From NCBI GenBank assembly GCA_018266075.1, contig JAFEBB010000052.1, positions 1 to 53,057 of the forward strand: a DNA stretch of 53,057 bases, in the 5' to 3' direction. This document shows, in pieces, positions 23,598 to 38,704 of this stretch. The first letter of the stretch is position 1, and each line of letters begins with the position of its first letter. The notes below the pieces were generated by a model that saw only the letters and a program-made list of their open reading frames with translations, was not told the DNA's origin and made no database searches. Made by a program: the position numbers and the translations under genes. The DNA is from Deltaproteobacteria bacterium (lineage in GTDB: Bacteria > Myxococcota > Myxococcia > Myxococcales > SZAS-1).

Positions 23598-23615
23598 AGT
23601 GACGCGATGCAGTCG

Positions 23616-23624
23616 TGCTACCGT
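23616..23624 (+). promoter_or_regulatory. Extended -10-like element of the second LamG lipoprotein gene
   Basis: TGCTACCGT ends 6 nt before the ATG at 23631. The 16 nt directly upstream of both paralogues match at 14 positions, so the promoter was duplicated with the gene or is under selection. Confidence 0.5.
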
Positions 23625-23630
23625 CAATCC

Positions 23631-24821
23631 ATGCAAATCAGGGTTTCGGCCGCTTGCCTTTTGGCCTTGGCGGGCTGCTTCAAGAGCGGAACGGACACCT
23701 CTGAGACCTCGAGCAGCACCACGGTTGGCGTCGGAGCAACCGGCTCGAGCGGGACCGGCGCGAACACCAGCGTGACCGCGAGCACGGGAACCTCAAGTAG
23801 CTCGAGCGGAACCACAGACACGTCGAGTGCAACGAGCAGCCCGTCGAGCAGCTCCAGCTCGAGCTCGTCGAGCGACGGCACATCGTCGAGCAGCGCGAGC
23901 TCCGTCAGCAGCTCCTCGAGCTTCTCGAGCTCGGGGAGCAGCTCGTCGAGCAGTTCGAGCTCCAGCAGTTCGTCGAGCAGCTCCAGCTCGTCCGGCAACA
24001 GCTCGAGCTCCTCGAGCTCGACCGGATCCACCGGCGGCACCACGGGCGCCGTCGACTCAGGCGTTGTCCTGAGACCGAGCCTCGCGCTGTGGCTGCGCGG
24101 CGATGGGCAGATCGACACCGTCGACGGCGGGTACGTGACCACCTGGCACGACGCCTCCGGGAATGGTCGCGATGCAAGTCAAGCGAACGCGATCAAGTTG
24201 CCGCAGCTCCAGTCGGCCACTCCACTTCCGGGCACGGGCGCCGCTCTCGAGTGGGTTCAGTTCTCTCCAGGAACCGGCCTCGGCCACACAGACGGCCAGG
24301 ATCTCGATGTCGACCTGAGCTTCCTGACCAACAGCGACTACACCATCGTCGCGTTGGTATCGCGGTACGGGGACACGTGGCTGAGCAACAACCAAGAAGG
24401 CAACTACTTCATCGGCGCCGGCGTTCTCACAAGCCAGAACAACAGCCTCCCCTACGGCGCGCTGCATGCCGGTTGGTACACCGATACGGACTTCCGCTTC
24501 TCGGAGTTCGGCAATGACGCCGATGCGAACGTGCCACCAAATCCGGTCGGAAGTTGGCAGGCCCAGCTCGTGACGTGCCGTTTCTCTAAACAGAACGGCC
24601 GGACGATTTACCTGGACGGCAATCTGGCCGCATTCGTTAGTGACACGACGCCACTCAATGCTGCCGACCAGGGCGCAGTGGGTCGCGGGTTCCTGAATGA
24701 CCATGCGAGCAATCAGTTCTCAGGCGGCATCGCAGAGCTCCTCGTCTATTCGGAAGCGCTCGGAGACGTCGACCGTGCGGCGGTCGAGTCGTTCCTGAGA
24801 ACGAAGTGGCAGGCACCCTAG
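23631..24821 (+). CDS. Lipoprotein with Ser-rich linker and LamG-like C-terminal domain (copy 2)
   Basis: 396 residues, tandem paralogue of the gene at 22440 and 33 nt from its stop. Lipobox LAGC is at ~16, followed by ~115 residues of Ser/Thr/Gly spacer with even longer Ser runs. The C-terminal domain starts LALWLRGDGQIDTVDGGYVT and ends DRAAVESFLRTKWQAP. The domain is much better conserved between copies than the linker, which differs in length and sequence. The ATG at 23631 is preferred over one at 23607 because only the former is followed directly by the signal peptide and preceded by the conserved -10-like element. Confidence 0.85.
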   Translation: MQIRVSAACLLALAGCFKSGTDTSETSSSTTVGVGATGSSGTGANTSVTASTGTSSSSSGTTDTSSATSSPSSSSSSSSSSDGTSSSSASSVSSSSSFSSSGSSSSSSSSSSSSSSSSSSSGNSSSSSSSTGSTGGTTGAVDSGVVLRPSLALWLRGDGQIDTVDGGYVTTWHDASGNGRDASQANAIKLPQLQSATPLPGTGAALEWVQFSPGTGLGHTDGQDLDVDLSFLTNSDYTIVALVSRYGDTWLSNNQEGNYFIGAGVLTSQNNSLPYGALHAGWYTDTDFRFSEFGNDADANVPPNPVGSWQAQLVTCRFSKQNGRTIYLDGNLAAFVSDTTPLNAADQGAVGRGFLNDHASNQFSGGIAELLVYSEALGDVDRAAVESFLRTKWQAP

Positions 24822-25084: not shown

Positions 25085-26284
25085 TCAAACGGGCCCGAAC
25101 CAGTGGGCGTATCCATTCGTCAGGTAGATGAGCAACGCCGTAAACAACACCAGCGCGGCGCCGATTAGAGGCGCGCGCTTCAAGCGGATGCCGGCCGCAA
25201 TGAAGAGCGGGAAGAGGACACTGGCATAGCGACCGGAGCTCACGTACGTGCCCGAGCCGAGAAAAGGCAGTGTGGAGCCAACGGAATAGAGAACCATCTC
25301 GGCTGGGATCGTGAATATTGCGAGCACCGTGGCAATGCCATTTAACGGCACCAGCAACATGTGCGTCGCATTCACCACGCGATCATAGAAGGGAACTCGC
25401 GGGTCGGTCGCATAGTGGATGTCGCGCCAGAGGTACGAAAAGCCGAAGCTCCGTCCCCACCCCGGCGCGCCCTGAATGGATGCGAACGCCAGCGGCGTAC
25501 CAAACGCCGTCCAGTTGAAATACAGGAAGCAGCAGAGCAACAGAGGCGTAAGCAGAAACGCGAACGCGTCGCGACGAATGCGTCGTGGGTCAAACCGAAT
25601 CTCTCTCAAATAGATGAGGCCGAGGATAGGCAGCAGCGCGATTCCAATGTTCCGGGTCACAGCCACGAACATGGCGAACACTGCGGCGCGCAGCCATCTG
25701 CCCTCGTACGCGCTCAAGACTGACCACGTGGACAGGGCCAGAAACAGCGATTCCGTATAGACGCAGCTGAAGAAATAAGAGAACGGATACAACGCCACGA
25801 GCCAGCAGGCACGCGTCGCGGCAGATGGGTCGGTCGTCCAGCGACTCGACAAACGGTGAATCGCCACCAGCGCGAAGCCAAAGGCCACGTTCGAGACGAT
25901 CAGCCCGCCCACGTAGAATGCACGATCCGGCGCGAGGACCAGTCGCCACGGCAACGCCATGAGCGCCGAGAGGTAACTATAGAGAGGAAAGAACGCGATG
26001 TTCGACTGGGCGCCGCGATGCAAAAAGTAGCCAGGATCGACGATGCTCCAATACCACGCCGAATCGCAGCGAATCAGTCCATCGATCGGCAAGAAGTCGG
26101 GAAACGCGCGAACGATGTAGCCAGGCGAGCGCAGCGGCCGGACGCCAATGGGTGAGTTGAGCGCTGGCCAAATTTCGAGGCCGATAAAGGCGACGGCCCA
26201 GACCAGGATTCGACTCACGAGAAACGGCAAAGCCGCCTTGCGGACGTGATCGTCGTCCAGGAAGCGTGGTCTGGCGAGCTTCAT
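25085..26284 (-). CDS. PIG-V-like GT-C mannosyltransferase
   Basis: 399 residues with about ten hydrophobic helices. An acidic motif after the first membrane segment (CDSAWYWSIVDPGYF, Asp74) and SNIAFFPLYSYL at ~94-105 match the PIG-V-like family of GT-C glycosyltransferases, which transfer mannose from a polyprenyl-phosphate sugar on the outer face of the membrane. It starts inside the end of the upstream GT2 gene (ATGA overlap), and that GT2 would supply the lipid-linked donor. The acceptor is unknown. The gene is less GC-rich than its surroundings and uses AT-ending codons freely, suggesting transfer. Confidence 0.78.
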   Translation of the reverse strand: MKLARPRFLDDDHVRKAALPFLVSRILVWAVAFIGLEIWPALNSPIGVRPLRSPGYIVRAFPDFLPIDGLIRCDSAWYWSIVDPGYFLHRGAQSNIAFFPLYSYLSALMALPWRLVLAPDRAFYVGGLIVSNVAFGFALVAIHRLSSRWTTDPSAATRACWLVALYPFSYFFSCVYTESLFLALSTWSVLSAYEGRWLRAAVFAMFVAVTRNIGIALLPILGLIYLREIRFDPRRIRRDAFAFLLTPLLLCCFLYFNWTAFGTPLAFASIQGAPGWGRSFGFSYLWRDIHYATDPRVPFYDRVVNATHMLLVPLNGIATVLAIFTIPAEMVLYSVGSTLPFLGSGTYVSSGRYASVLFPLFIAAGIRLKRAPLIGAALVLFTALLIYLTNGYAHWFGPV

Positions 26285-27042
26285 GCGGCGACGGCCCTTG
26301 TCGAGCCGCGTCGCCGCTTGTTCCGATCGACCTTGAATCGAGCGAGGTCAATTCCGGCGCGGAGCATGCTCCTGAGGCGCAGCTTCGACCCGCCGACATC
26401 GCGCCACCTCAGCAGCGGCACCTCGACGAAATCACCGAACGCCAGCGCATCTGGCCCATTCAGCAGGCGCGAAAGAAGCTCGACGTCGAAAACCCAGCGC
26501 GATTGAAAGGGCGTCGCCAGGGCGCGTCGCAGCGCAGGGGTATCCAAGAATACCTTCGCGCCACACTGAGTATCATAGAACGGGTGCTCCAAAGTGATGC
26601 TCACAGCGGTTGCGAAGATGCGTCCAACCACGTGGCGAACCGCGAGCCGTTCGACCTGCGCCCCGGCGCGACGTACGCGAGAGCCCAGAACTACCCTCAT
26701 ACCCGTAGCACGCAGCACGCCCAGCAACCGCAACCACTCGAGGGCGAGCGGCGAGAAATCTGCATCGAGGAACCCAACGATCTCGTAGCCACTCGCCAGT
26801 CCCTGCTGCAACCCGCGGCGCACCGCCTCGGCTTTCCCGTCGTGCCTCTCGAGAATCAGCGCTCGAACGCGCGCGGGCGCCTGGGCGCTGATTTCTCGAA
26901 GCAGCGAAGCGGTGCCGTCGATCGAGCCATCGTCCACGAGCAAGACATCGACCTTCTCGGCCGAAATGAGCCGGAGCACCTCATCCGCACGGAGGCGCCG
27001 CTCCTCGTTGAAACAAGGGACGATGACTAACGCTTTCGACAT
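26281..27042 (-). CDS. GT2 glycosyltransferase, dolichol-phosphate-mannose-synthase-like
   Basis: 253 residues from ATG 27042 (another ATG at 27051). It has a GT-A fold: VIVPCFNEE at 7-15, LLVDDGSIDGT at 34-44 and the DxD-type DAD at 93-95, then a CGAKVF block and DVELL typical of DPM1-like enzymes. It lacks the C-terminal membrane helices of longer relatives and ends in a basic tail. Likely product: polyprenyl-phosphate mannose (or glucose) made at the inner membrane for the PIG-V-like enzyme. It overlaps the methyltransferase gene upstream and the transferase gene downstream. Confidence 0.85.
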   Translation of the reverse strand: MSKALVIVPCFNEERRLRADEVLRLISAEKVDVLLVDDGSIDGTASLLREISAQAPARVRALILERHDGKAEAVRRGLQQGLASGYEIVGFLDADFSPLALEWLRLLGVLRATGMRVVLGSRVRRAGAQVERLAVRHVVGRIFATAVSITLEHPFYDTQCGAKVFLDTPALRRALATPFQSRWVFDVELLSRLLNGPDALAFGDFVEVPLLRWRDVGGSKLRLRSMLRAGIDLARFKVDRNKRRRGSTRAVAA

Positions 27043-27863
27043 AGCGCCCACGCACTGAGTCCCGGCAGAGCAACGCCATGATCGGATGCGCGCGCAGAGA
27101 TGCGGCCCTCAACCACGAGCGCTGAATGAACCACTTTCGTGATCCAAGTTGGCTTGTTCCAAGTACCGAGATCCTGCGTCTCGTTCTTTGACGTGGCGAA
27201 CTCCAGCGCGCGGGTCGCGACGCGCGCCAGGAGCAGACCATGAAAGAGACCGCCTTGTTTCACGTTATCGAGATCGGCGCTGCGTACGGCATCCGTAAGC
27301 TGTGCGGGCGAATAGCGGCGGAAGTGCTTTAGCCGTGCATCGTGCGGACCGTAGAGCTGCTGCCATGCCGGCACGCTCACCAGAATCCAGCCGCGCGGAC
27401 GGAGACACCCGACGAGCCCGCGCAGAAACCCGACATCGTCCTCGACGTGCTCGATGACATCGAGCGCAAGCGCGAGACCAAACGGTCCCCGTGGCGTCTC
27501 GGCGGTAAATCGGCCCCCCGGATGCTGCGCTTCCAGCTCGCCAATTTGCGATATTGTATAGTTCAGATCCCAGCACGTTAGCTCAACACTGCTGCGCAGC
27601 ACGGGCGCGAGCTCGCTCAGAAACCAGCCGTCTCCGGCGCCAGCATCGAGGACCGAGCCGATCTCCCCCATGGCGAGGTTGTCGACGAGCAGCCGAGCGA
27701 AGAAGTCACGACGACTGCTTTCCCACGGGTGTCGCGCAAATTGCCCGCTGGGGATTTCGACGAGGTCCATGCGATGGTCGACGTGGATGCACATCGTCGC
27801 CGGGAACTCAAAGGGATGCAAGAACGAGCTGGGGGCACCCAGCTGCGAACTGCGAGTGGTCAT
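27027..27863 (-). CDS. Class I SAM-dependent methyltransferase
   Basis: 278 residues. Motif I VLDAGAGDG is at 71-79, and the post-II/III region has ALDVIEHVEDD (Asp135 onward) followed by a WILVSVPAWQQLYGPHD block common in glycan-cluster methyltransferases. The start is uncertain: the ATG at 27863 overlaps the terminal repeat of the IS remnant, and Met24 (27794) or Met32 could be the ancestral start (MDLVEIPSGQFARHPWES resembles a family N-terminus). First gene of the three- or four-gene glycosylation operon. The substrate is probably a sugar or lipid-linked intermediate. Confidence 0.82.
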   Translation of the reverse strand: MTTRSSQLGAPSSFLHPFEFPATMCIHVDHRMDLVEIPSGQFARHPWESSRRDFFARLLVDNLAMGEIGSVLDAGAGDGWFLSELAPVLRSSVELTCWDLNYTISQIGELEAQHPGGRFTAETPRGPFGLALALDVIEHVEDDVGFLRGLVGCLRPRGWILVSVPAWQQLYGPHDARLKHFRRYSPAQLTDAVRSADLDNVKQGGLFHGLLLARVATRALEFATSKNETQDLGTWNKPTWITKVVHSALVVEGRISARASDHGVALPGLSAWALCRKR

Positions 27864-28944: not shown

Positions 28945-30120
28945 ATGCGCTCGCTTGCACTCTCGCTCATCGCAACGTCCACGTTCGCCTGCGGCACGAA
29001 CAATTCGAGCTCCAGCAGCAGCTCGGCCACGGGCACCCCAGGCAGCAGCACGACCGCTTCTTCGGTGGGCTCGAGCAGCGGTTCGACGAGCGCTTCGAGC
29101 TCGACCGGATCCAGCGCCTCGTCCTCGTCGGGCGCGTCCTCGGGCTCGAGCGGCACGTCGTCATCGAGCAGCACCAGCAGCAGCTCGACGGGCTCCAGCG
29201 GCGGCAGCGGCTCGTCGACCGGCGGCACCTTCGATACGAGCGCGGTCTACTTCGTGGGCACGCTCGACACGCACTTCTGCGGCTCGGACGTGATCGTCAC
29301 ACCCGATGCGCCGACCGATGTGAGCGTCGGCCTGCCCTGCTTCGACGTCGGCTTCTCGCTGCGCAACGACGGCAAGCTCGTCTACCTCTACACCGACGGC
29401 AACGCCGTCACGCACGTGGCGGCCTTCGTGCCCGACGCGTTCGTCTCGAGCGGCGGCACCTGGAGCTTACCTTCGAGACCTGAAGCGAACGACACGCTCA
29501 TCCCCACCCCCGCCTGCGACGCGGCGGGCGGCCCGAGCGGCTTCGCGCTCGATCCCGAGACGGGCGAGACCATCTTCAACTGCCCGGGCAGCAACGACTG
29601 GGTCGACGAAGCCGGCAACCTGCGCGTGCCTGGCGCGGCACCGCTCTCGCTCGGCTACGGCGGCACCGCGCTCGCGTTCGCGCCGGGCGGCGGACTCCTC
29701 GTGTTCGCACCCGACGGCGGCGCCACGGTCGCGACCGGCTTGCCCGGCAGCTTCGAGATGGACGCCGCGCGCCCGGTGTCCGACGGCTGGAAGGTCGCGC
29801 TCGACGACGGCAGCGGAAATCGCACGCTCTTCCACGTCGACTTCACTGCGAGTGCGACCTCGCTCGGCATCTATCCCGCGTTCGACGCGGTCGAGCTCAC
29901 GTCCGCCATCGATGGCGCCAACGCGCTCTACCTCTTCGGCAGCGATCCCGCGGATTCGAGCGGAGGTTCGCGCACGATCGCGCGGCTGCCGTTGAACGGC
30001 TCGAGCGCCGACGTCATCTATACGGACTTCAACGCGCCGGTCGACGACTACACGTCGACACCGCCGCACGTGTTCGCGCGCGTCGGCGTGACCGGCGGAC
30101 GACTGGTCGGCGTGCACTAG
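28945..30120 (+). CDS. Lipoprotein with Ser-rich linker and beta-rich domain
   Basis: 391 residues. The signal peptide ends TFAC (Cys16) and is followed by ~75 residues of Ser/Gly/Thr spacer. The remaining ~300 residues have repeated strand-turn patterns with Asp/Gly (for example DGKLVYLYTDGNAVTHVAAF, DGWKVALDDGSGNRTLFHVD and NALYLFGSDPADSSG), suggesting a beta-propeller. Four Cys probably pair as disulfides. No catalytic motif recognised. The stop codon overlaps that of the convergent NAD-synthase-like gene within CTAG. Confidence 0.82.
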   Translation: MRSLALSLIATSTFACGTNNSSSSSSSATGTPGSSTTASSVGSSSGSTSASSSTGSSASSSSGASSGSSGTSSSSSTSSSSTGSSGGSGSSTGGTFDTSAVYFVGTLDTHFCGSDVIVTPDAPTDVSVGLPCFDVGFSLRNDGKLVYLYTDGNAVTHVAAFVPDAFVSSGGTWSLPSRPEANDTLIPTPACDAAGGPSGFALDPETGETIFNCPGSNDWVDEAGNLRVPGAAPLSLGYGGTALAFAPGGGLLVFAPDGGATVATGLPGSFEMDAARPVSDGWKVALDDGSGNRTLFHVDFTASATSLGIYPAFDAVELTSAIDGANALYLFGSDPADSSGGSRTIARLPLNGSSADVIYTDFNAPVDDYTSTPPHVFARVGVTGGRLVGVH

Positions 30121-31118
30121 GCAATCGCGAACGGCTTGAGCTCAGCCACCTGCTCCAGCAACAACGGCGGCGCGTGCAGGTACGCGGTCGTGCGCCGCTT
30201 CTGATCCACGTCGTCGTAGACGCGCTGCACCTGCTCGGGCGTGTACGCGAGCTCGCGCGCGACGTCGGCCACAGGCACGCCGTTGTTCTTCGCCCAGAGG
30301 ATCAGGTCGAGCTGCTGGTACGGCACCGAAAAATAGAAGTCCTCCTGGCTCTGCTCGAGGCTGTACGTGTCGGTCGTGGGCGCGCGCGCGCAGATCTCAG
30401 GCGTCACGCCGAGGTGCCGCGCGAGCGCGTAGGTCTGCGTCTTGTACAAGCCAGCGATCGGCTTCACATCGGCGCTGCCGTCGCCGAGCTTCACGAAGAA
30501 GCCCTGGTCGTACTCCAGCCGATTCGGCGTGCCCGCGACCGCGTAGTGCAAGCGATCCGCCTGGTGGTACTCGAGCATCTTGCGCGCGCGCTGCTTGAAG
30601 TTCGTCGCGGCCACGATGCGCAGGTACGCCTCGGCGGTGAGCCGAACCTTGTGCTCCTTGCCCTGCGCGTCGCGCACCACCACGTAGAACACGTTGAGCT
30701 GCTCGGAGCTCAGCCGATCACCGTGCATGGTGATCTTCCACTTCATTCCCGGCTCGAATGCAGGAAACACCGAGCGCACCGCGGCGTCGCGCTCGGCATA
30801 GCAACCTGCGGCCTCGAGCATCGGCGCGATGTCCTGCATGTGGAACGCGATGCCCAGCTTCTCGCAGAGCGCGCGTCCGAGCTTCGTGCTCTCGGGACTC
30901 GAGTCGCGCTCGGGCAACAGCAGCCCGAACACGCGCTCCTTGCCCAGCGCGCGCACGCCGAGCGCGGCCACGCACGCCGAGTCGATGCCACCCGAGACGG
31001 CCACGACGAGCCCGCGCCGCTTCAACCGCTTGAGCACGGCCTCGCGAAGCTGCTGGGAGAGCGCTTCAGCGCGCGCCTCCAGATCGATCTCGAGCACGTT
31101 CTTGGAAAACGCCTTCAT
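30117..31118 (-). CDS. NAD-synthase-like ATP-dependent amide-forming enzyme
   Basis: 333 residues. It is an N-type ATP pyrophosphatase with P-loop SGGIDS (42-47) and further NAD-synthetase features: GTPNRLEYDQGFFVKLGDGS, then PIAGLYKTQTYALARHLGV. Genuine NadE has a KPPSADLxxGQTDE-type segment; here it reads APTTDTYSLEQSQEDFYF, and an inserted region (~105-165) is present. It is last in the five-gene operon (ATGA overlap with the ligase). NadE adenylates a carboxylate and forms an amide with ammonia. I infer the same chemistry, perhaps on an ACP-bound or pathway-specific acid, but ordinary NAD synthesis cannot be excluded. Confidence 0.8.
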   Translation of the reverse strand: MKAFSKNVLEIDLEARAEALSQQLREAVLKRLKRRGLVVAVSGGIDSACVAALGVRALGKERVFGLLLPERDSSPESTKLGRALCEKLGIAFHMQDIAPMLEAAGCYAERDAAVRSVFPAFEPGMKWKITMHGDRLSSEQLNVFYVVVRDAQGKEHKVRLTAEAYLRIVAATNFKQRARKMLEYHQADRLHYAVAGTPNRLEYDQGFFVKLGDGSADVKPIAGLYKTQTYALARHLGVTPEICARAPTTDTYSLEQSQEDFYFSVPYQQLDLILWAKNNGVPVADVARELAYTPEQVQRVYDDVDQKRRTTAYLHAPPLLLEQVAELKPFAIA

Positions 31119-32701
31119 CCCGTCTCTCCCCGCGGCCTGCGCGCCGCGATGAGCCGCGCCACCTCGCGGCGCAGCACCTTGCCCACTTCGTTGCGCGGCA
31201 ATGCATCCACGGCGACCACCCAGCGCGGCACGTGCGTGGGCGAGAGCTGCGCGCGACACCGCCGACGCAGCGCGTCCAGCGAAATCGAGTGGCCCGGCCG
31301 CTGCACCACCGCCGCCGCCGGCACCTCCCCTTCGACGGGATCCACGACTCCAACCACCGCCGCCTCGAGTACGCCCGGATCCGCCGCGAGCACGCTCTCA
31401 ATCTGCGCCGGGCTCACACGATATCCGCCGACCTTGAGCAGCTCCTTCGCGCGATCCACGAGGAAGAAGTAGCCGTCGGCGTCGCGGTAGCCGACGTCGC
31501 CCGTGAAGAGCCAGTTCTCACGGAACGTGCGCATCTGCTCTTCCGGCGCGTCGAGGTAGCCGAGCGCCACGCCGGGCCCGCGCGCGACGAGCTCGCCCAC
31601 CTGGCCATCCGGCAGCGGGTTCGCGTTCGCGTCGACCACGTACAGCTCCATGTTCTCCACGGGCACGCCGATGGAGCCTTCCTTCGTCGAGCCCTGCTCC
31701 GGCGGCAGGTAGCAGAGCCGCGCGGTGGCCTCGGTCTGGCCGTACATGACGAAGAACTTCGCGGGCCAGAACTGCGCGCGCGCCCAGCGCACCGTGTCCG
31801 TCGACATCGCGCCGCCGGCCTGGGTCACGTAGCGCAGGCTCATCGACACGCGGAACGACGGCACCGTGCGGCGCAAGAGCTCAAAGGTCGCGGGCACGCC
31901 GGAGAAGCCCGTGCAGCGCTCTTCCGACATGGCCTCCAGCACCACGCGCGGGAACATGAAGCGATCGTCGAGGTACACCGAGCCGCCGACGAGCAGGTGC
32001 GAGTGCAGCACGCTGCGCCCGTACGCGTAGCTGAGCGGCAGGATGAGCATCGCGCGGTCTTCTGCGCCCAGCGACAGGTACTTCGCGATCGCCCGAGCGT
32101 TCGCCTCCAGGTTTCCAAACGAGAGCACCACGCCCCGCGGAACTGCCGTGCTGCCGGAGGTGAAGAGCACCAACGCGGGCTCGTGCGCCTCGCGCTGCGC
32201 GGGCTCGAGGCGATCCGGAACCTCCGCGCGAAGAAGCTCGCCCGACTGGGTCATGGTCTCGAGCTGCGAGGCGCCGAACGATCCGAGCGACGCGGGCCGC
32301 GAGCCGCCGCCGACCACGATCACCTTCTCGAACCAGCGCGCCGCCGGCACCTGCGCCCAGAGCGCGCTGTCCCGCTCGCGCACGAACGCGAAGCGCGCGC
32401 CCACTTGCGCAGCCGCGGCAGCCACCGTCTCCGGCCCGCTCGAGGGACTCACCTCGCACGCGCAGCCGCCCGCAGCCTGAACGCCGAGGGCTGCCACCGC
32501 CGCCGCTGCCGAGTTGCTCAGCGAGATGAGCACGCGCTCGCCCGGCGAGATCCCCGCGGTGCGCAGGTTGGCGACGACGGCGCCCACGCGGCGCGCGAGC
32601 GCGGAGTAGCTCACGCGCGCGTGCGGCGAGTCGACTGCCGGCGCCATCGGCCGGCGCATCGCGTGACGGAAGAGCCAATCGTGGGGAGCCAGGACACTCA
32701 T
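31115..32701 (-). CDS. AMP-forming acyl/aminoacyl ligase
   Basis: 528 residues of the ANL superfamily. Motif A3 reads LVLFTSGSTAVPRG (177-190), where Ala replaces the usual Gly and Arg the usual Lys of TSGTTGxPKG. VMYGQTEATARLCYL is motif A5, GDVGYRDADGYFFLVDR A7, KVGGYRVSPAQIE A8, and the C-terminal catalytic Lys lies in PRNEVGKVLR. It should activate a carboxylic acid as adenylate and load it on CoA or, given the neighbouring carrier, on the ACP at 34694. The ATG overlaps the asparagine-synthase stop, and its own stop overlaps the next start. Confidence 0.9.
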   Translation of the reverse strand: MSVLAPHDWLFRHAMRRPMAPAVDSPHARVSYSALARRVGAVVANLRTAGISPGERVLISLSNSAAAAVAALGVQAAGGCACEVSPSSGPETVAAAAAQVGARFAFVRERDSALWAQVPAARWFEKVIVVGGGSRPASLGSFGASQLETMTQSGELLRAEVPDRLEPAQREAHEPALVLFTSGSTAVPRGVVLSFGNLEANARAIAKYLSLGAEDRAMLILPLSYAYGRSVLHSHLLVGGSVYLDDRFMFPRVVLEAMSEERCTGFSGVPATFELLRRTVPSFRVSMSLRYVTQAGGAMSTDTVRWARAQFWPAKFFVMYGQTEATARLCYLPPEQGSTKEGSIGVPVENMELYVVDANANPLPDGQVGELVARGPGVALGYLDAPEEQMRTFRENWLFTGDVGYRDADGYFFLVDRAKELLKVGGYRVSPAQIESVLAADPGVLEAAVVGVVDPVEGEVPAAAVVQRPGHSISLDALRRRCRAQLSPTHVPRWVVAVDALPRNEVGKVLRREVARLIAARRPRGETG

Positions 32702-34671
32702 GCAGCCTCCACCTCCGCCGGGAAGGGGCCGGCGCGGAACGGGCGCGTCCACGCGACGCGCATCTGCTCGAGGAGCTGCCCCGTGGCCACCGCGACGAGC
32801 GCGGAGGCGTCGGACTCGCTCGCGTGACCGCCGCGCGCGAGCTTGTCCACGAGCAGCTTCACCTTGTTGGCATCGAACAAGCCGGCCTGGCGAATCGCGC
32901 TCGGCTGCAGCGCCTCGCGAGCCCAGTCGACGGCGTTCGGCCCCACGAGCCCCGAGACCACCGGCGCGCGATAGGGAAACTTTCCGCGCTGCGCGAGCAC
33001 GGGCGGCAAGAGTCGCCGCCCGATTCGCCGCAGGATCCGCTTGTCGCGCAGACCGCGGAGCTTCGCGGTGTCCGGCAGTCGCGCCGCGCACTGCATCAGC
33101 CGATGATCGAGGAACGGAAAGCGCCCCTCCACGCCGTGGCCGAGCAGCACGCGGTCGCCCTGCGCCGAGAGCAGGTAGCCGGAGAGGAACGTCTGCATCT
33201 CCAGCACCTGCGCCCGCGCGAGCGCGCGAAAGCCGAGCGCACGCGTGGGGAACGCCAGCTCCGCCGAGCTCGCCGGATCCTCGTCGGCCGCGGCGAAGGC
33301 GACACCCGGCTCGAGCAAGCGCATCAAGCGCGCGCCCGCCGTCCAGCGCACGCGGTGCGAGAAGTCCCACGCATCTGGCGCATCGAGCCCGACACCGAAC
33401 GACTCGCGCAGCATCCCGCTCGCGCGCGCAAACGTCCCGAGCCACGGATAGAGCCGCGACAGCAGCGACGACCACCGCGGCGAGTCCGGCTCCTGCGCCC
33501 AGCGCTGGCGGACGCTCGTTTCCTTGTAGAGGTCGTAGCCCCAGAAGATCTCGTCGGCGCCTTCGCCGGTGAGCACGACCTTCAAGCCGTGCTCGCGCAC
33601 CAGGTTCGAGAGCTTGAGCAGCGGCGCCGGCGCCGCGCGCAAGAGCAACTGCTCGGCGTGCCACACCACCTCGGGCAAGGCCTCAGCCACCGCGCGCTCG
33701 TCGACCTCCACCGTCGCGTGCTCGGTGCGCAGCGCCGCCACCGCGCGCGCCTGGTGCTCGCGCTCGTCGAAGTCGCCGTTGCGGAACTTCACCGAGAACG
33801 TCTTCAGCCCGTCGCCGATCTGCAGCTTGGCGATCGCCGAGAGCAGGCTCGAGTCCAGGCCACCCGAGAGGTACGCGCCCACGGGGACGTCGGCGCGCAG
33901 CCGCAGCCGCACCGCATCGCGCAGCAGCGCCTCCACCTCGAGCTCGTCCTCGCGCGCGCTGCGGCGAACGATGTGCGCGTCGTCGAGGTCCAGCTCCCAG
34001 TAGCGCCGCAGCTCCAGCGCGCCCGACGCGAAGCGCGCGACCGTCCGCGGCGGCAGCGCGCACACGCCCTCGAAGGCGCTGCGCCCCTCGGCCGGACTCC
34101 AGAGCTGCAGCGTCTGCTTGAGTGACGCGACATCGAGCCGAGGTGTCACCAGCCCAGCGGCGAAGAGCGCCTTGGCCTCCGACGCGAACGCCAGCCCTGC
34201 ACTGGTGCGCGCATAGAAGAGCGGACAGATGCCCACGCGGTCGCGCGCGAGCCAGAGCTCTCGCGTGCGCGGATCCCAGATCGCGAACGCGAACTGTCCG
34301 TTGAAGCTCTGGACGCAGTCGATGCCGTAGGCGAGGTAGCTCGCGAGCAGCACCTCGGTGTCGGAGCGGGTGCGGAACGCGTAGCCACGCGCGAGCGGCT
34401 CGCGCAGCTCCTGGTGGTTGAAGATCTCGCCGTTGAAGGTGACGGTTACTCCTGTCGCGGGATCGCGCATCGGCTGCACGCCACCCTCGAGGTCGACGAT
34501 GGCGAGCCGGGTGTGGCCGAGCGCCATGCCGTCGAGGAGCAGCCCGCGCTGCGCGTCGGGGCCGCGGTGGCGCAGCGCCGCGAGCATCCGCTGCAGGGGC
34601 CGCTCGAAGCGTCCGCGCCGCTCCATGCCGCGAAGCCCCGCATCGAACGTGAACCCTGCCACGCCGCACAT
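32698..34671 (-). CDS. asnB: Glutamine-dependent asparagine-synthase-type amidotransferase
   Basis: 657 residues, normal for AsnB. The N-terminal glutaminase domain starts MCGVAGF with nucleophile Cys2 and has LRHRGPDA and VTFNGEIFNHQELR. The synthetase domain has the ATP pyrophosphatase loop LSGGLDSS (269-274) and VLTGEGADEIFWGYDLYKE. The family amidates carboxylates with Gln nitrogen. Many cluster-borne members modify pathway intermediates rather than aspartate, and the ACP and ligase neighbours make that likely here. The start is 22 nt after the ACP stop. Confidence 0.9.
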   Translation of the reverse strand: MCGVAGFTFDAGLRGMERRGRFERPLQRMLAALRHRGPDAQRGLLLDGMALGHTRLAIVDLEGGVQPMRDPATGVTVTFNGEIFNHQELREPLARGYAFRTRSDTEVLLASYLAYGIDCVQSFNGQFAFAIWDPRTRELWLARDRVGICPLFYARTSAGLAFASEAKALFAAGLVTPRLDVASLKQTLQLWSPAEGRSAFEGVCALPPRTVARFASGALELRRYWELDLDDAHIVRRSAREDELEVEALLRDAVRLRLRADVPVGAYLSGGLDSSLLSAIAKLQIGDGLKTFSVKFRNGDFDEREHQARAVAALRTEHATVEVDERAVAEALPEVVWHAEQLLLRAAPAPLLKLSNLVREHGLKVVLTGEGADEIFWGYDLYKETSVRQRWAQEPDSPRWSSLLSRLYPWLGTFARASGMLRESFGVGLDAPDAWDFSHRVRWTAGARLMRLLEPGVAFAAADEDPASSAELAFPTRALGFRALARAQVLEMQTFLSGYLLSAQGDRVLLGHGVEGRFPFLDHRLMQCAARLPDTAKLRGLRDKRILRRIGRRLLPPVLAQRGKFPYRAPVVSGLVGPNAVDWAREALQPSAIRQAGLFDANKVKLLVDKLARGGHASESDASALVAVATGQLLEQMRVAWTRPFRAGPFPAEVEAA

Positions 34672-34693
34672 GGCTGAACCTCAGTTGCACACC

Positions 34694-34939
34694 TCAGGCC
34701 GACCGGCGCTGCCGCTTGCCCTCCACGAACGCGACCACCTTCGTCAGCGACTCGAAGTTCGCGGGCACCAGCTCTTCGTCCTCCACTTCGACGCCGAACG
34801 TGTCCTCCACGAACGCCACGAGCTGCAGCATCCCCATGGAGTCGATGATTCCCGTGCGAAGGAACGAGTCGTCGTCGCCGAAGGTCTCGACGAAGAACGA
34901 CTCGCAGATGAATTTCCTCAGTTGCTCCGTCGTGCTCAT
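34694..34939 (-). CDS. Acyl carrier protein
   Basis: 81 residues. The phosphopantetheine attachment Ser34 lies in GIIDSMGMLQLVAFVEDTFG, a variant of the ACP DSL motif with Met after Ser. An acidic helix II-III surface (FGVEVEDEELVP) and overall length are typical. It is a stand-alone carrier inside the operon, unlikely to be the fatty-acid ACP because of its context and sequence. The ATG overlaps the stop of the SGNH-like gene (ATGA). Confidence 0.9.
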   Translation of the reverse strand: MSTTEQLRKFICESFFVETFGDDDSFLRTGIIDSMGMLQLVAFVEDTFGVEVEDEELVPANFESLTKVVAFVEGKRQRRSA

Positions 34940-35739
34940 GCGCGCCTTTCCCCCTCGTGCGTCAACGCGGCCTCGCCCAGGCCCGCTGCAAACTCGACGA
35001 GCGCCCGCGCGAGGCGAAGCTGGGCCGTCGCGTTCAGGTGTCCGCCGTCATCGGTGTTGCAATCGGCCAGCACCGGGACCGAGAGCCCGCGGTGCATCTG
35101 CGAAGCGGGCTGGCCCTCGGCGTCGAGCGACTCCAGCCACGCCAGATCGAAGAGCTCGGGCTCGTGCCGCCGCAGCCGCTGGTTGAGCGCCTGCCGATGG
35201 AGGTTGTCCTCGGCGCCCGCGCCAGGCCGCCCCAGCAGCCGCCGCGCCCAGGCCTTGGGTCCGCGAGGCGCCGCGGTGAGCGGCACGGTCATCAGCGCGA
35301 ACCCGGTGCGCGGGTGGCGCTCGCGGAGCGCGGTGAAGATTTCGCGAATGCGGCCGAAGAGCGCGTCGATCGGCGTCTGCGCGCCCACGTCGACATAGCA
35401 GAGCTTGAAGAGCACCAGGTCCGCGTGCGCGGCGATGCCGCCGTCGGCGAGCTCACGAAGGCGCGTCAGCTTGCGGCCGGGATCGCCGTTGTGTCCCAGA
35501 CGCGCGTGCACCCAGGTGCCAGGAACGAGCGCCGCCGGGTCCTCGCTCTCCACCAGCTGCAGGCGCAGATCCGGGTGCTCCGCGAACCAGTGCCCGAGGC
35601 CGGAAAGCAAGTTCGCGCCCACGGACGCGTGCGCGAAAAAGATTCGCTTCTCGCGCAAGGCAGAGAGGGCACGCCGCATGCGCGCGTCCGCACTCTCACC
35701 CGGAGCCGCGCCCCGCCCCCGCGCCGCCTGGGTCTGCAT
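34936..35739 (-). CDS. SGNH-hydrolase-like protein, first gene of the ACP operon
   Basis: 267 residues from ATG 35739, chosen because GGAGG precedes it. The frame is open to 35829. A nucleophile-like Ser is in FFAHASVGANLLSGLGHWF. LGHNGDPGRKL and LFKLCYVDVGAQTP resemble internal SGNH blocks, and DDGGHLN near the C-terminus supplies a catalytic Asp-x-x-His pattern. No signal peptide seen. Possible roles: esterase or acyltransferase acting on the ACP-bound or glycan product. The assignment to SGNH is by motif order only. Confidence 0.62.
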   Translation of the reverse strand: MQTQAARGRGAAPGESADARMRRALSALREKRIFFAHASVGANLLSGLGHWFAEHPDLRLQLVESEDPAALVPGTWVHARLGHNGDPGRKLTRLRELADGGIAAHADLVLFKLCYVDVGAQTPIDALFGRIREIFTALRERHPRTGFALMTVPLTAAPRGPKAWARRLLGRPGAGAEDNLHRQALNQRLRRHEPELFDLAWLESLDAEGQPASQMHRGLSVPVLADCNTDDGGHLNATAQLRLARALVEFAAGLGEAALTHEGERRA

Positions 35740-35857: not shown

Positions 35858-36124
35858 TCACTCCGGGCGAACCTGGCTCCGCGTCCGGCGCGCGCCCTCG
35901 AAGGGGTACTCCCCGAGGCGCGGCAGCCAACCGATCAAGGCCACGCCTGCCAGCCCGATGACGGCGTACACCGCTCGGGTGAACGCGCCGGCATTCGAGT
36001 GCACGGCGCCGCCAAAGATGGCCGCGAGCAGGTTCCAGTTGAACAGGCCCACCAGGCCCCAATTGAGCGCGCCGAGGATGGCCAGCGCGAGCAGCACCAC
36101 GCTCATTCCGCCCAGCCGCTTCAT
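35858..36124 (-). CDS. DUF378 family membrane protein
   Basis: 88 residues, ATG with AGGAGG upstream. The sequence includes LAILGALNWGLVGLFNWNLL, the core motif of DUF378 (YuzA-like) proteins, then a second helix (FTRAVYAVIGLAGVALIGWL). Two membrane helices with short polar ends. Function unknown. It lies at the left edge of the stress-type island and is 57 nt downstream of the PRTase-hydrolase gene on the same strand. Confidence 0.85.
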   Translation of the reverse strand: MKRLGGMSVVLLALAILGALNWGLVGLFNWNLLAAIFGGAVHSNAGAFTRAVYAVIGLAGVALIGWLPRLGEYPFEGARRTRSQVRPE

Positions 36125-36181: not shown

Positions 36182-37519
36182 CTACGCGTGGAGGTGGGGC
36201 GGCTGGGGCGCGAGGTAGAGCTCGAACTCGTGGAGTGCGAGCCGCGTCACCTGCTCCAGCGCGCCCGGCTCCGAGAAGAGGTGCGTCGCCCCTTCGACGA
36301 CCGCGATCCGTGTCGGAGCGTGCAGGTGCCGCGCCGCCGTCCGGTTGAGCGCGAGCACCTCCGTGTCGTCGCCGCCCACGATGAGCAGGACCGGCGCGCG
36401 CACCCGACCGAGCACGGTCGCTGGCGCGAGGTCCGGTCGCCCGCCGCGTGAGACCACCGCGTGCACGCGCTCGGGCCGCTCGGCCGCGGCGGTCAGTGCC
36501 GCGGCGGCGCCCGTGCTCGCGCCAAACAACCCCAGCGGCAGGTCGCGCGTGGCGGGCTCCATCGACAGCCAGTCCACGACCTCCACCACGCGCGTCGACA
36601 GCAGCTCGATGTCGAAGCGGAGATCGCCCGTGAGCTCGTCCTCGCGCTCTTCCTCCTCGCTCAGGAGATCGACGAGCAGCGCGCCGAAGCCCGCGTCCTC
36701 GAGCGCGCGGGCCACCGCCTGGTTGCGCGGGCTGAAGCGGCTGCTCCCGCTGCCGTGAACGAAGAGCACCAGCCCTCGCGCGCCGCGTGGCACGCGCAAG
36801 AGCCCCGCGAGCCGGACGCCGCCCGCGGGCACCTTCACCTCGCTGTGCAGCGGCGTGGGCACCGTGTCGGCTGGCGCAGGCGAGCTCGCGAATGAGCGCG
36901 CATCGGAGAGGAGCTGCAGCGCCGTGGTCTCGCTCACCTCTGGAAAGTGCTCGTACGCCTCGACGACATTCTCCAGATCGGCAAGCGCGACGAGCGCGTC
37001 CACCTCGGGCTCGAGCGCCTCGCGACTGCCTCTGGCGAGCACCGGCGTTCCCAACACCACGCGCGCCGCGCCCGAATTGCGAAGGTGTCTCGCCGCCGCG
37101 CCGACCACGAGTGCCGGCGACGCACCGTCGTCGACGATGATCGCCGTTCGCCCGCGCAAGTCCGGCCCCGAGCCCTCGCCGCGATAGGTGTGCAGCCGCC
37201 GAGCGACCTCGTCCGCTTCGTGCTCGGCGAGCGACGCGAGCTCCGCGGGCTCCATGTCGAGCCGCTCGATGGCCTCGCGGTCGAGGCACAACGAGCCGCC
37301 CTCCGCCACCGCGCCCACCACACAGCTCGCGTCCCCGGGGGCGCACACGCGGCGCGCCACGAGCACGTCGAGCGGCGCGCCGAGCGCGCGCGCGACCTCC
37401 ACGGCCACGGGCAGCCCGCCGCGCGGCAACGCGAAGACGATGGGCGCATCCGCGCGATAGCTCCGCAGCCTCTCGGCGAGCTGCGCGCCTGCGTCGTGCC
37501 GATCCGCGAAGCAAGCCAT
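36182..37519 (-). CDS. Phosphoribosyltransferase-like / dienelactone-hydrolase-like fusion
   Basis: 445 residues in two parts. Residues 1-210 are a type I phosphoribosyltransferase fold (ALPRGGLPVAVEVARALGAP; VAEGGSLCLD), but the PRPP loop at 126-139 reads AIIVDDGASPALVV, lacking the ATG-type residues that hold the phosphate in the sister protein at 38051. Residues ~230-445 are an alpha/beta hydrolase of the dienelactone-hydrolase type: VLFVHGSGSSRFS, nucleophile in LFGASTGAAAA, Asp in VGGDDTEVL and His in EGATHLFSE. The same fusion is known from the Mycobacterium DosR dormancy regulon (Rv0571c). AGGTG precedes the ATG. Confidence 0.85.
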   Translation of the reverse strand: MACFADRHDAGAQLAERLRSYRADAPIVFALPRGGLPVAVEVARALGAPLDVLVARRVCAPGDASCVVGAVAEGGSLCLDREAIERLDMEPAELASLAEHEADEVARRLHTYRGEGSGPDLRGRTAIIVDDGASPALVVGAAARHLRNSGAARVVLGTPVLARGSREALEPEVDALVALADLENVVEAYEHFPEVSETTALQLLSDARSFASSPAPADTVPTPLHSEVKVPAGGVRLAGLLRVPRGARGLVLFVHGSGSSRFSPRNQAVARALEDAGFGALLVDLLSEEEEREDELTGDLRFDIELLSTRVVEVVDWLSMEPATRDLPLGLFGASTGAAAALTAAAERPERVHAVVSRGGRPDLAPATVLGRVRAPVLLIVGGDDTEVLALNRTAARHLHAPTRIAVVEGATHLFSEPGALEQVTRLALHEFELYLAPQPPHLHA

Positions 37520-38050: not shown

Positions 38051-38704
38051 TCAAGTCGGAAGCGATTCGGGGATGCGAGGTGACGCATCGAGGAGGCGCG
38101 CCACCTCTTCGTCTGTGGTCTGGCTGAAGTCGAAGTACCACTCGCCGATCGCGAAGAGCGCATCGGTGGGATCCACGCAGACCACTTCGTCCGCGAGCGC
38201 GGCGAGCTCCCGCAGCGACGCGTTCGGCGCCACGGGCGTGGCGAGAACGAGCTTCTTGGGCTTCAAGCTGCGCAGGTCGCTCAGCGCCGCGCGCACCGAG
38301 CGCCCGGTGGCGATGCCGTCGTCCACGAGGATGACCGTGCGGCCGCGGGGATCCACGCGCGGTCGATCGCCGCGATACGCGCGCATTCGGCGCTGGAGCT
38401 CGAGGGTCTCGCGCTTCACGAGCGCATCGACGTACGCGCGCGTGGCGCCCGCCTCCGCTGCATCGGGCCAGTCGACGTAGCAGGTGCCGCCCTCGCCGAT
38501 GGCGCCGATGGCGTACTCCTGCTGAAAGGGCGCGCCGAGCTTGCGGACGATCCACACATCGAGCGGCGCGTTCAGCGCTCGAGCGACCTCGTAGCCCACG
38601 GGCACGCCGCCGCGAGGCAGTGCGAGCACCAGGGGCGCTTCCTTCGCCAGGTGCCCGAGCCTCGCAGCGAGCTGTCGACCTGCGTCTTTTCGATCACGAA
38701 ACAC
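38051..38704 (-). CDS. Phosphoribosyltransferase family protein
   Basis: 217 residues, GTG start with GAGG upstream. It has an intact PRPP-binding loop VILVDDGIATGRSV (123-136), together with LALPRGGVPVGYEVARALNA and EYAIGAIGEGGTCYVDW. Homologous over its length to the N-terminal half of the fusion at 36182, but with conserved ligand residues. The nucleobase or other acceptor is unknown. Such stand-alone PRTases often sit beside CBS, hydrolase and universal-stress genes. A PRPP synthetase gene lies 2.5 kb away in the same island. Confidence 0.85.
   Translation of the reverse strand: MFRDRKDAGRQLAARLGHLAKEAPLVLALPRGGVPVGYEVARALNAPLDVWIVRKLGAPFQQEYAIGAIGEGGTCYVDWPDAAEAGATRAYVDALVKRETLELQRRMRAYRGDRPRVDPRGRTVILVDDGIATGRSVRAALSDLRSLKPKKLVLATPVAPNASLRELAALADEVVCVDPTDALFAIGEWYFDFSQTTDEEVARLLDASPRIPESLPT

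Follow-up and report, generated by a model that had tools for sequence, protein, structure and literature searches.

An NAD(+) synthase-like protein in a conserved acyl carrier protein cassette with a candidate link to surface glycans

Why should a protein that databases name an NAD(+) synthase be encoded together with an acyl carrier protein (ACP), an AsnB-type amidotransferase and an AMP-forming acyl ligase? The question is raised by an operon in the window, by which we mean the whole stretch of 53,057 nucleotides analysed here. A preliminary description had listed five leftward genes at 30117-35739, with three ATGA junctions and one of 22 nt, and had proposed a surface-glycan or small-molecule decoration pathway not yet described. 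Coordinates and sequence agree with this layout (Table 1); the ATGA overlaps lie at 34936-34939 (SGNH/ACP), 32698-32701 (AsnB/ligase) and 31115-31118 (ligase/NadL). Its family calls hold for all five genes, through curated profile cut-offs and, for the SGNH protein, through the predicted structure. Since homologues of the five frames occur in dozens of genomes, chance frames can be excluded. At its 3' end the operon meets a convergent gene (28945-30120), with a 4-nt overlap at the NadL stop. A small DUF378 protein is encoded upstream of the operon on the same strand (35858-36124).

Table 1. Coordinates of the operon features in the window (assembly GCA_018266075.1, contig JAFEBB010000052.1)
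Feature	Position	Strand	Basis or remark
SGNH-fold hydrolase/transferase	34936..35739	-	Operon gene 1, ATG start; SGNH model match and conserved S39/D231/H234
ACP with DSxG phosphopantetheine motif	34694..34939	-	PF00550
Gap, ACP stop to AsnB start	34672..34693	-	22 nt
AsnB-type glutamine amidotransferase, glutaminase and synthetase domains	32698..34671	-	TIGR01536
AMP-forming acyl ligase	31115..32701	-	PF00501 and PF13193
NadE-like protein NadL	30117..31118	-	NF002048/PRK00876
NadL-specific insertion, about residues 121-164	30627..30758	-	Alignment against 16 NadE; model

A four-gene cassette in two phyla

Among 195 Myxococcota genomes, 75 gave a match to the NadL family profile NF002048, as did 15 of 398 Pseudomonadota genomes. 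From Myxococcota, Pseudomonadota and two plasmids we compiled 68 non-duplicate NadL loci, and in 60 of them the ACP, the AsnB-like protein and the ligase are all encoded within 7.5 kb of NadL. Six of the eight incomplete loci have NadL at most 1.3 kb from a contig end; the other two lie away from contig ends, one without a ligase found (L018) and one without an AsnB found (L119). Gene order varies freely among the cassettes, so the linkage is not that of one frozen operon passed down by descent. Within a genus whose other members carry NadL, two genomes (G034 and G039) are missing both NadL and the matching AsnB. We are therefore nearly certain that ACP, AsnB, ligase and NadL form one functional unit. 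Lack of co-conservation elsewhere, named beforehand as an argument against the proposed operon, was not observed for this four-gene core. The SGNH gene does not belong to it: it accompanies only some Myxococcota loci and is a clade-specific extra.

Two kinds of setting can be distinguished. Type A cassettes (Myxococcaceae, the window and a Nevskia MAG) usually have an SGNH gene and/or two hexapeptide (LbH) acyltransferase genes before the ACP, and in the window operon and at locus L087 this LbH pair is missing from between SGNH and ACP. Type B cassettes lie more often inside polysaccharide loci. Stand-alone cassettes also occur, as in Sinorhizobium meliloti and Shinella, and some of these are found on plasmids.

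AsnB scores 454 bits against a TIGR01536 cut-off of 267 and carries both the SGGLDSS synthetase motif and the Cys2 glutaminase residue, as expected of the asparagine synthase superfamily; Cys2 is retained in 31 of the 33 rows with a letter at that position. The cassette AsnBs form one clade (FastTree support 0.97) when compared with other AsnBs from the window genome and from genomes without NadL, and 33 positions are conserved in this clade and rare outside it. An equivalence of R345 with the E. coli IRAS arginine was dropped, the alignment being ambiguous there. Judged from sequence, the core motifs of AsnB and the ATP site of NadL are intact. In the ligase TSGST, YGQTE and the C-terminal Lys508 are conserved. 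The ACP exceeds its PF00550 cut-off (27.0 against 20.8), and D33, S34 and G36 are near-invariant among 65 cassette ACPs. The cispentacin ACP AmcB was considered as a guide to the product and rejected as too weak a match (47 bits, cut-off 80).

No family or structure-sequence library that was searched returned a match for the SGNH protein. Its AlphaFold model (pLDDT 89.9) does resemble natural SGNH esterases, the best VIA matches giving Z of about 14-15 and an rmsd of about 2.9 over some 175 residues. All 22 homologues compared keep S39, D231 and H234, so that the SGNH fold, the serine and the Asp-x-x-His of the superfamily are all present. A clear signal peptide was not seen on this protein, unlike several of its homologues.

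NadL and housekeeping NadE

NadL scores 474.8 bits with NF002048, against a cut-off of 313. A maximum likelihood tree of 26 NadL and 16 NadE rows separates the two groups with a support of 100/100; the branches at the join are long, and our claim is limited to the split. The comparison with true NadE that had been called for thus places NadL in a clade of its own. All 51 cassette genomes tested contain another NadE (a TIGR00552 match elsewhere), and on this ground an identity of NadL with the housekeeping enzyme was rejected. In the window genome this second NadE is a 553-residue frame on another contig (C42), which scores 210 bits with TIGR00552 against 142 for NadL. NadL as the genome's sole NadE, the other counter-argument raised in advance, has accordingly not come true.

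In structure, NadL and NadE (PDB 2e18, 1xng) share a common fold and the SGGxDS P-loop, GTxNxxE and KxGDGxxD core. The NadL model (pLDDT 92.8) has the NadE fold, with TM-scores by target of 0.81-0.85 against NadE structures. NadL retains SGGxDS, GTxNxxE, KxGDGxAD and a later lysine, and its K210, D217 and K226 correspond to conserved NadE positions. Some of the retained motifs bind deamido-NAD in NadE, and for that reason an NAD-like substrate is a possibility for NadL. Unlike NadE, it has an insertion of about 44 residues, modelled as a three-stranded beta hairpin (strands 126-131, 144-149 and 155-159) and absent from the 16 NadE sequences in the alignment. EYDQGFFVK, PTTDT and the C-terminal His315 are invariant motifs peculiar to NadL, which also keeps fixed gene company and is without a glutaminase domain. 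Overall, NadL is very likely not a housekeeping NadE.

A protein of this kind may already have been observed. A study of Azospirillum brasilense cell extracts detected a third NadE isoform, which lacks glutaminase and was not bound by PII (PMC7646526). Plasmids of A. brasilense carry a NadL gene, and the third isoform is probably the cassette protein.

Known systems and a probable surface-glycan link

The cassette is not wholly undescribed: the same four genes (asnB, ACP, ligase and nadE) are present on S. meliloti pSymB (L139/L141). Identities with the window proteins amount to 52% for NadL, 44% for AsnB, 40% for the ACP and 30% for the ligase. The S. meliloti operon differs in having no SGNH gene and another gene order, with a PrmC-like gene about 11.5 kb away. 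We take the locus tags SMb20650 and SMb20651 to be the ligase and ACP genes that we located in the sequence. The operon was first described by Ramos-Vega et al. in 2009, who reportedly named asnB and nadE1 in it and saw C12/C18 acylation of its ACP. The ligase gene SMb20650 is co-transcribed with the ACP gene SMb20651, and its product acylates the ACP on co-expression in E. coli and is no substitute for FadD (PMC7232532). A literature search for the four genes together gave no match, and a term search of the 2006 PEP-CTERM paper did not find the cassette enzymes named. The breadth of the cassette, its glycan link and the neofunctionalisation of NadE appear to be so far undescribed.

The XrtA/PEP-CTERM system (TIGR03098, TIGR03108, TIGR03101) uses the same enzyme classes in an EPS setting, and TIGR03101-like hydrolases are encoded near some cassettes as well. 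Membership of the cassette in this system was nevertheless rejected, since the window ligase scores 301.5 bits with TIGR03098 (cut-off 592.4), the window AsnB 353.8 bits with TIGR03108 (cut-off 816.9), and the window genome (a 96.6% complete draft) has no PF09721 exosortase match. The preliminary description had noted that parts of the operon recall exosortase-associated clusters and that an exosortase is not present. Exosortases are absent from 28 of 36 cassette genomes, and the five operon genes include no PLP-dependent decarboxylase. The FkbH/ACP glyceryl-ACP systems likewise provide an acyl donor bound to an ACP, within an EPS locus; there the acyl group is loaded by FkbH, without ligase or amidation. 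Elsewhere in the window genome, contig C53 encodes an LbH-FkbH fusion and an LbH-ACP-like fusion. By sequence, the closest solved structure to the cassette AsnB is the hydroxyamidotransferase 7ylz of the AsnB superfamily, a natural-product enzyme that makes a hydroxamate; we know of no NadE-like partner for it.

The link to surface glycans comes from the neighbourhoods. EPS markers occur in 10 of 20 cassette regions against none of 20 control regions, the controls being the 20 kb around the true NadE, drawn from 20 of these cassette genomes (Fisher p = 0.0002; the value is optimistic, since cassette loci supplied some of the markers and the genomes come from related species). Azospirillum EPS markers are among the matches in all ten regions, apart from any in which a Myxococcota Wzc alone would count. 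LbH/SAT genes are found in 5 of 20 cassette regions and in none of the 20 controls. Genes near the type B and Pseudomonadota cassettes encode, among others, EPS initiating transferases, glycosyltransferases, hexapeptide and EpsC-like acyltransferases, polysaccharide deacetylases and XrtA-type hydrolase 2. In Azospirillum ramasamyi a complete EPS locus closes with the cassette and a GNAT gene. The other ten of the 20 cassette loci tested lack a nearby EPS marker, and the window operon has no adjacent EPS cluster and no adjoining dedicated acyltransferase. Hexapeptide (LbH2-like) acyltransferases are encoded near 32 of the 68 NadL loci. A counterpart of the Corallococcus LbH acyltransferase pair was sought in the window genome and not accepted, the best match, 33% identical, being confined to the LbH part of an LbH-FkbH fusion.

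Another recurrent neighbour is a PrmC/HemK-family gene with an NPPY motif, which lies inside the cassette at five loci (L051, L053, L057, L061, L064) and next to it or a short distance away at seven more (L113, L114, L115, L118, L120, L122, L140). Two such proteins were scored: at 170-179 bits they stay under the cut-off of the release-factor N5-glutamine methyltransferase model (199 bits), and they pass the broader HemK cut-off. PrmC is a methyltransferase of the glutamine side-chain amide, and a PrmC-like neighbour would therefore be expected if the cassette product bears a carboxamide.

A candidate pathway and its alternatives

Taken together, the cassette may well make a carboxamide-bearing acyl group on its dedicated ACP and hand it on to an acyltransferase for the decoration of a cell-surface polysaccharide; we put this forward tentatively. 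The ligase would activate a carboxylic acid as acyl-AMP and load it onto the ACP phosphopantetheine. This is the one step with experimental support, in another species, namely the loading of the S. meliloti ACP by its ligase in E. coli. The AsnB-like enzyme would then hydrolyse glutamine and convert an adenylated carboxylate, belonging to the acyl group or to a partner acid, to an amide. NadL, as a neofunctionalised NadE, might catalyse a second adenylation and amide bond in the same pathway, and in some lineages the PrmC-like enzyme may N-methylate the amide. Finally, a clade-specific acyltransferase would move the group, a hexapeptide LbH enzyme in Myxococcota and a GNAT in Azospirillum. Because the window operon carries only the SGNH gene, the gene for this acyltransferase would lie elsewhere in the window genome; the SGNH protein itself could transfer or trim the acyl group, as a transferase or an esterase.

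Three other explanations have to be weighed. The product might instead be a small molecule that diffuses away, either an amide or an amino-acid conjugate (a signal, a metallophore or an antibiotic-like compound), freed by hydrolysis or a thioesterase, with the proximity to EPS genes incidental. Stand-alone cassettes on plasmids speak for this, as does the fact that AsnB homologues form other amide-type bonds in natural products, 7ylz (the best PDB match) being an example. Its best support comes from the Pseudomonadota loci L113, L118 and L120, where an adenylation-thioesterase protein is encoded beside the cassette, and L114 has a thioesterase; a released small molecule fits the former three loci better than glycan decoration does. 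Judging from the tree, in which the two of the three that were included fall near Mesorhizobium, these loci are probably from Rhizobiales. For the cassette as a whole we nonetheless consider a diffusible product unlikely, given the enrichment of EPS genes over the controls and the fact that the cassette showed no conserved association with a transporter, a condensation domain or a ketosynthase. Family profile searches of the genes in the window operon found no ketosynthase to go with the ACP, which sets the operon apart from a fatty-acid or polyketide synthase.

Alternatively, the ligase could load a fatty acid on the ACP, from which the two amide-forming enzymes would make a fatty amide or aminolipid. 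The ligase superfamily does include fatty-acyl ligases, and the S. meliloti ACP becomes acylated when co-expressed with its ligase, but that ligase does not replace FadD for long-chain fatty acids (PMC7232532) and no conserved lipid-synthesis genes were seen nearby, which makes a lipid modification rather improbable. That NadL works as an ammonia-dependent NAD synthetase, among unrelated fatty-acid and asparagine genes, is very improbable. The family name, a score above the NF002048 cut-off and the NadE-matching K210, D217 and K226 are in line with such a role; the additional NadE in every genome tested, the strict linkage to the same three genes across two phyla, and the separate clade with its insertion all argue against it.

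Summarizing, the cassette is real, conserved and partly known as an orphan operon. The earlier proposal of surface-glycan or small-molecule decoration is supported in part, for ACP-based amidation and the glycan link, and the S. meliloti set qualifies its claim to be entirely new. By its gene company, its tree position and the redundancy of NadE, a protein that databases call NAD(+) synthase appears to be dedicated to another pathway, which extends over rhizobia, Azospirillum, myxobacteria and others; a neofunctionalised NadE and an ACP-fed amide decoration of glycans would each, to our knowledge, be a first case. The family is a good candidate for a correction of its name. Possibly, and with some doubt, the whole NF002048/PRK00876 family is misnamed and represents an amide-forming enzyme from a widespread ACP-dependent pathway by which exopolysaccharides receive carboxamide acyl groups, N-methylated in some lineages. 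If the protein does serve another pathway than NAD synthesis, many genomes carry a wrong name, and the orphan S. meliloti operon, whose ACP and ligase have been studied biochemically, would gain a testable role in surface chemistry.

Adenylation-thioesterase proteins adjoining the cassette

Next to the cassette, three loci encode an adenylation-thioesterase-type protein (see table). These proteins are without a condensation domain; those of L113 and L120 were assigned by scanning, that of L118 by similarity.

Features of the cassette loci, the window and the window's genome
Feature	Location	Strand	Note
Adenylation-thioesterase-type protein, single-module	L113:2359-5112		directly adjoins cassette; scanned
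Adenylation-thioesterase-type protein, single-module	L120:6669-9416		directly adjoins cassette; scanned
Adenylation-thioesterase-type protein, single-module	L118:10459-13254		directly adjoins cassette; by similarity
Phosphoribosyltransferase domain fused to dienelactone-hydrolase-like domain	window 36182-37519
Second, similar phosphoribosyltransferase-like frame	window 38051-38704		upstream of the fusion, same strand
Multi-span membrane protein, GT2 glycosyltransferase, methyltransferase	window 25085-27863	-	three overlapping genes
Lipoprotein-like frame	window 28945-30120	+	very long serine-rich linker
Lipoprotein-like frame	window 23607-24821	+	very long serine-rich linker
EPS-type locus	G000 (window's genome) contig C53, L137, 8598-14727

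Cassette setting in other genomes

A type A cassette including both LbH genes is present on contig JADHNH010000006.1 of a gammaproteobacterial Nevskia MAG (L017), where NadL is 73% identical; this is due either to horizontal transfer or to a misbinned contig. Several tandem SGNH paralogues are located 5' of the cassette in two loci (L010:367-4788 and L073:1-1824). On two different rhizobial plasmids, of S. meliloti (L139) and Rhizobium sp. ACO-34A (L198), minCDE is found near the cassette.

Other candidate glycan loci in the window's genome

The three overlapping genes in the window possibly form a separate glycan or lipid operon. The EPS-type locus on C53 encodes LbH fused to FkbH and what seems to be a fusion of LbH with ACP; it also has WecG-like and Wzx-like genes and a gene for a probable Sfp-type phosphopantetheinyl transferase. 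The locus appears to be a glyceroyl-ACP decoration system in its own right.
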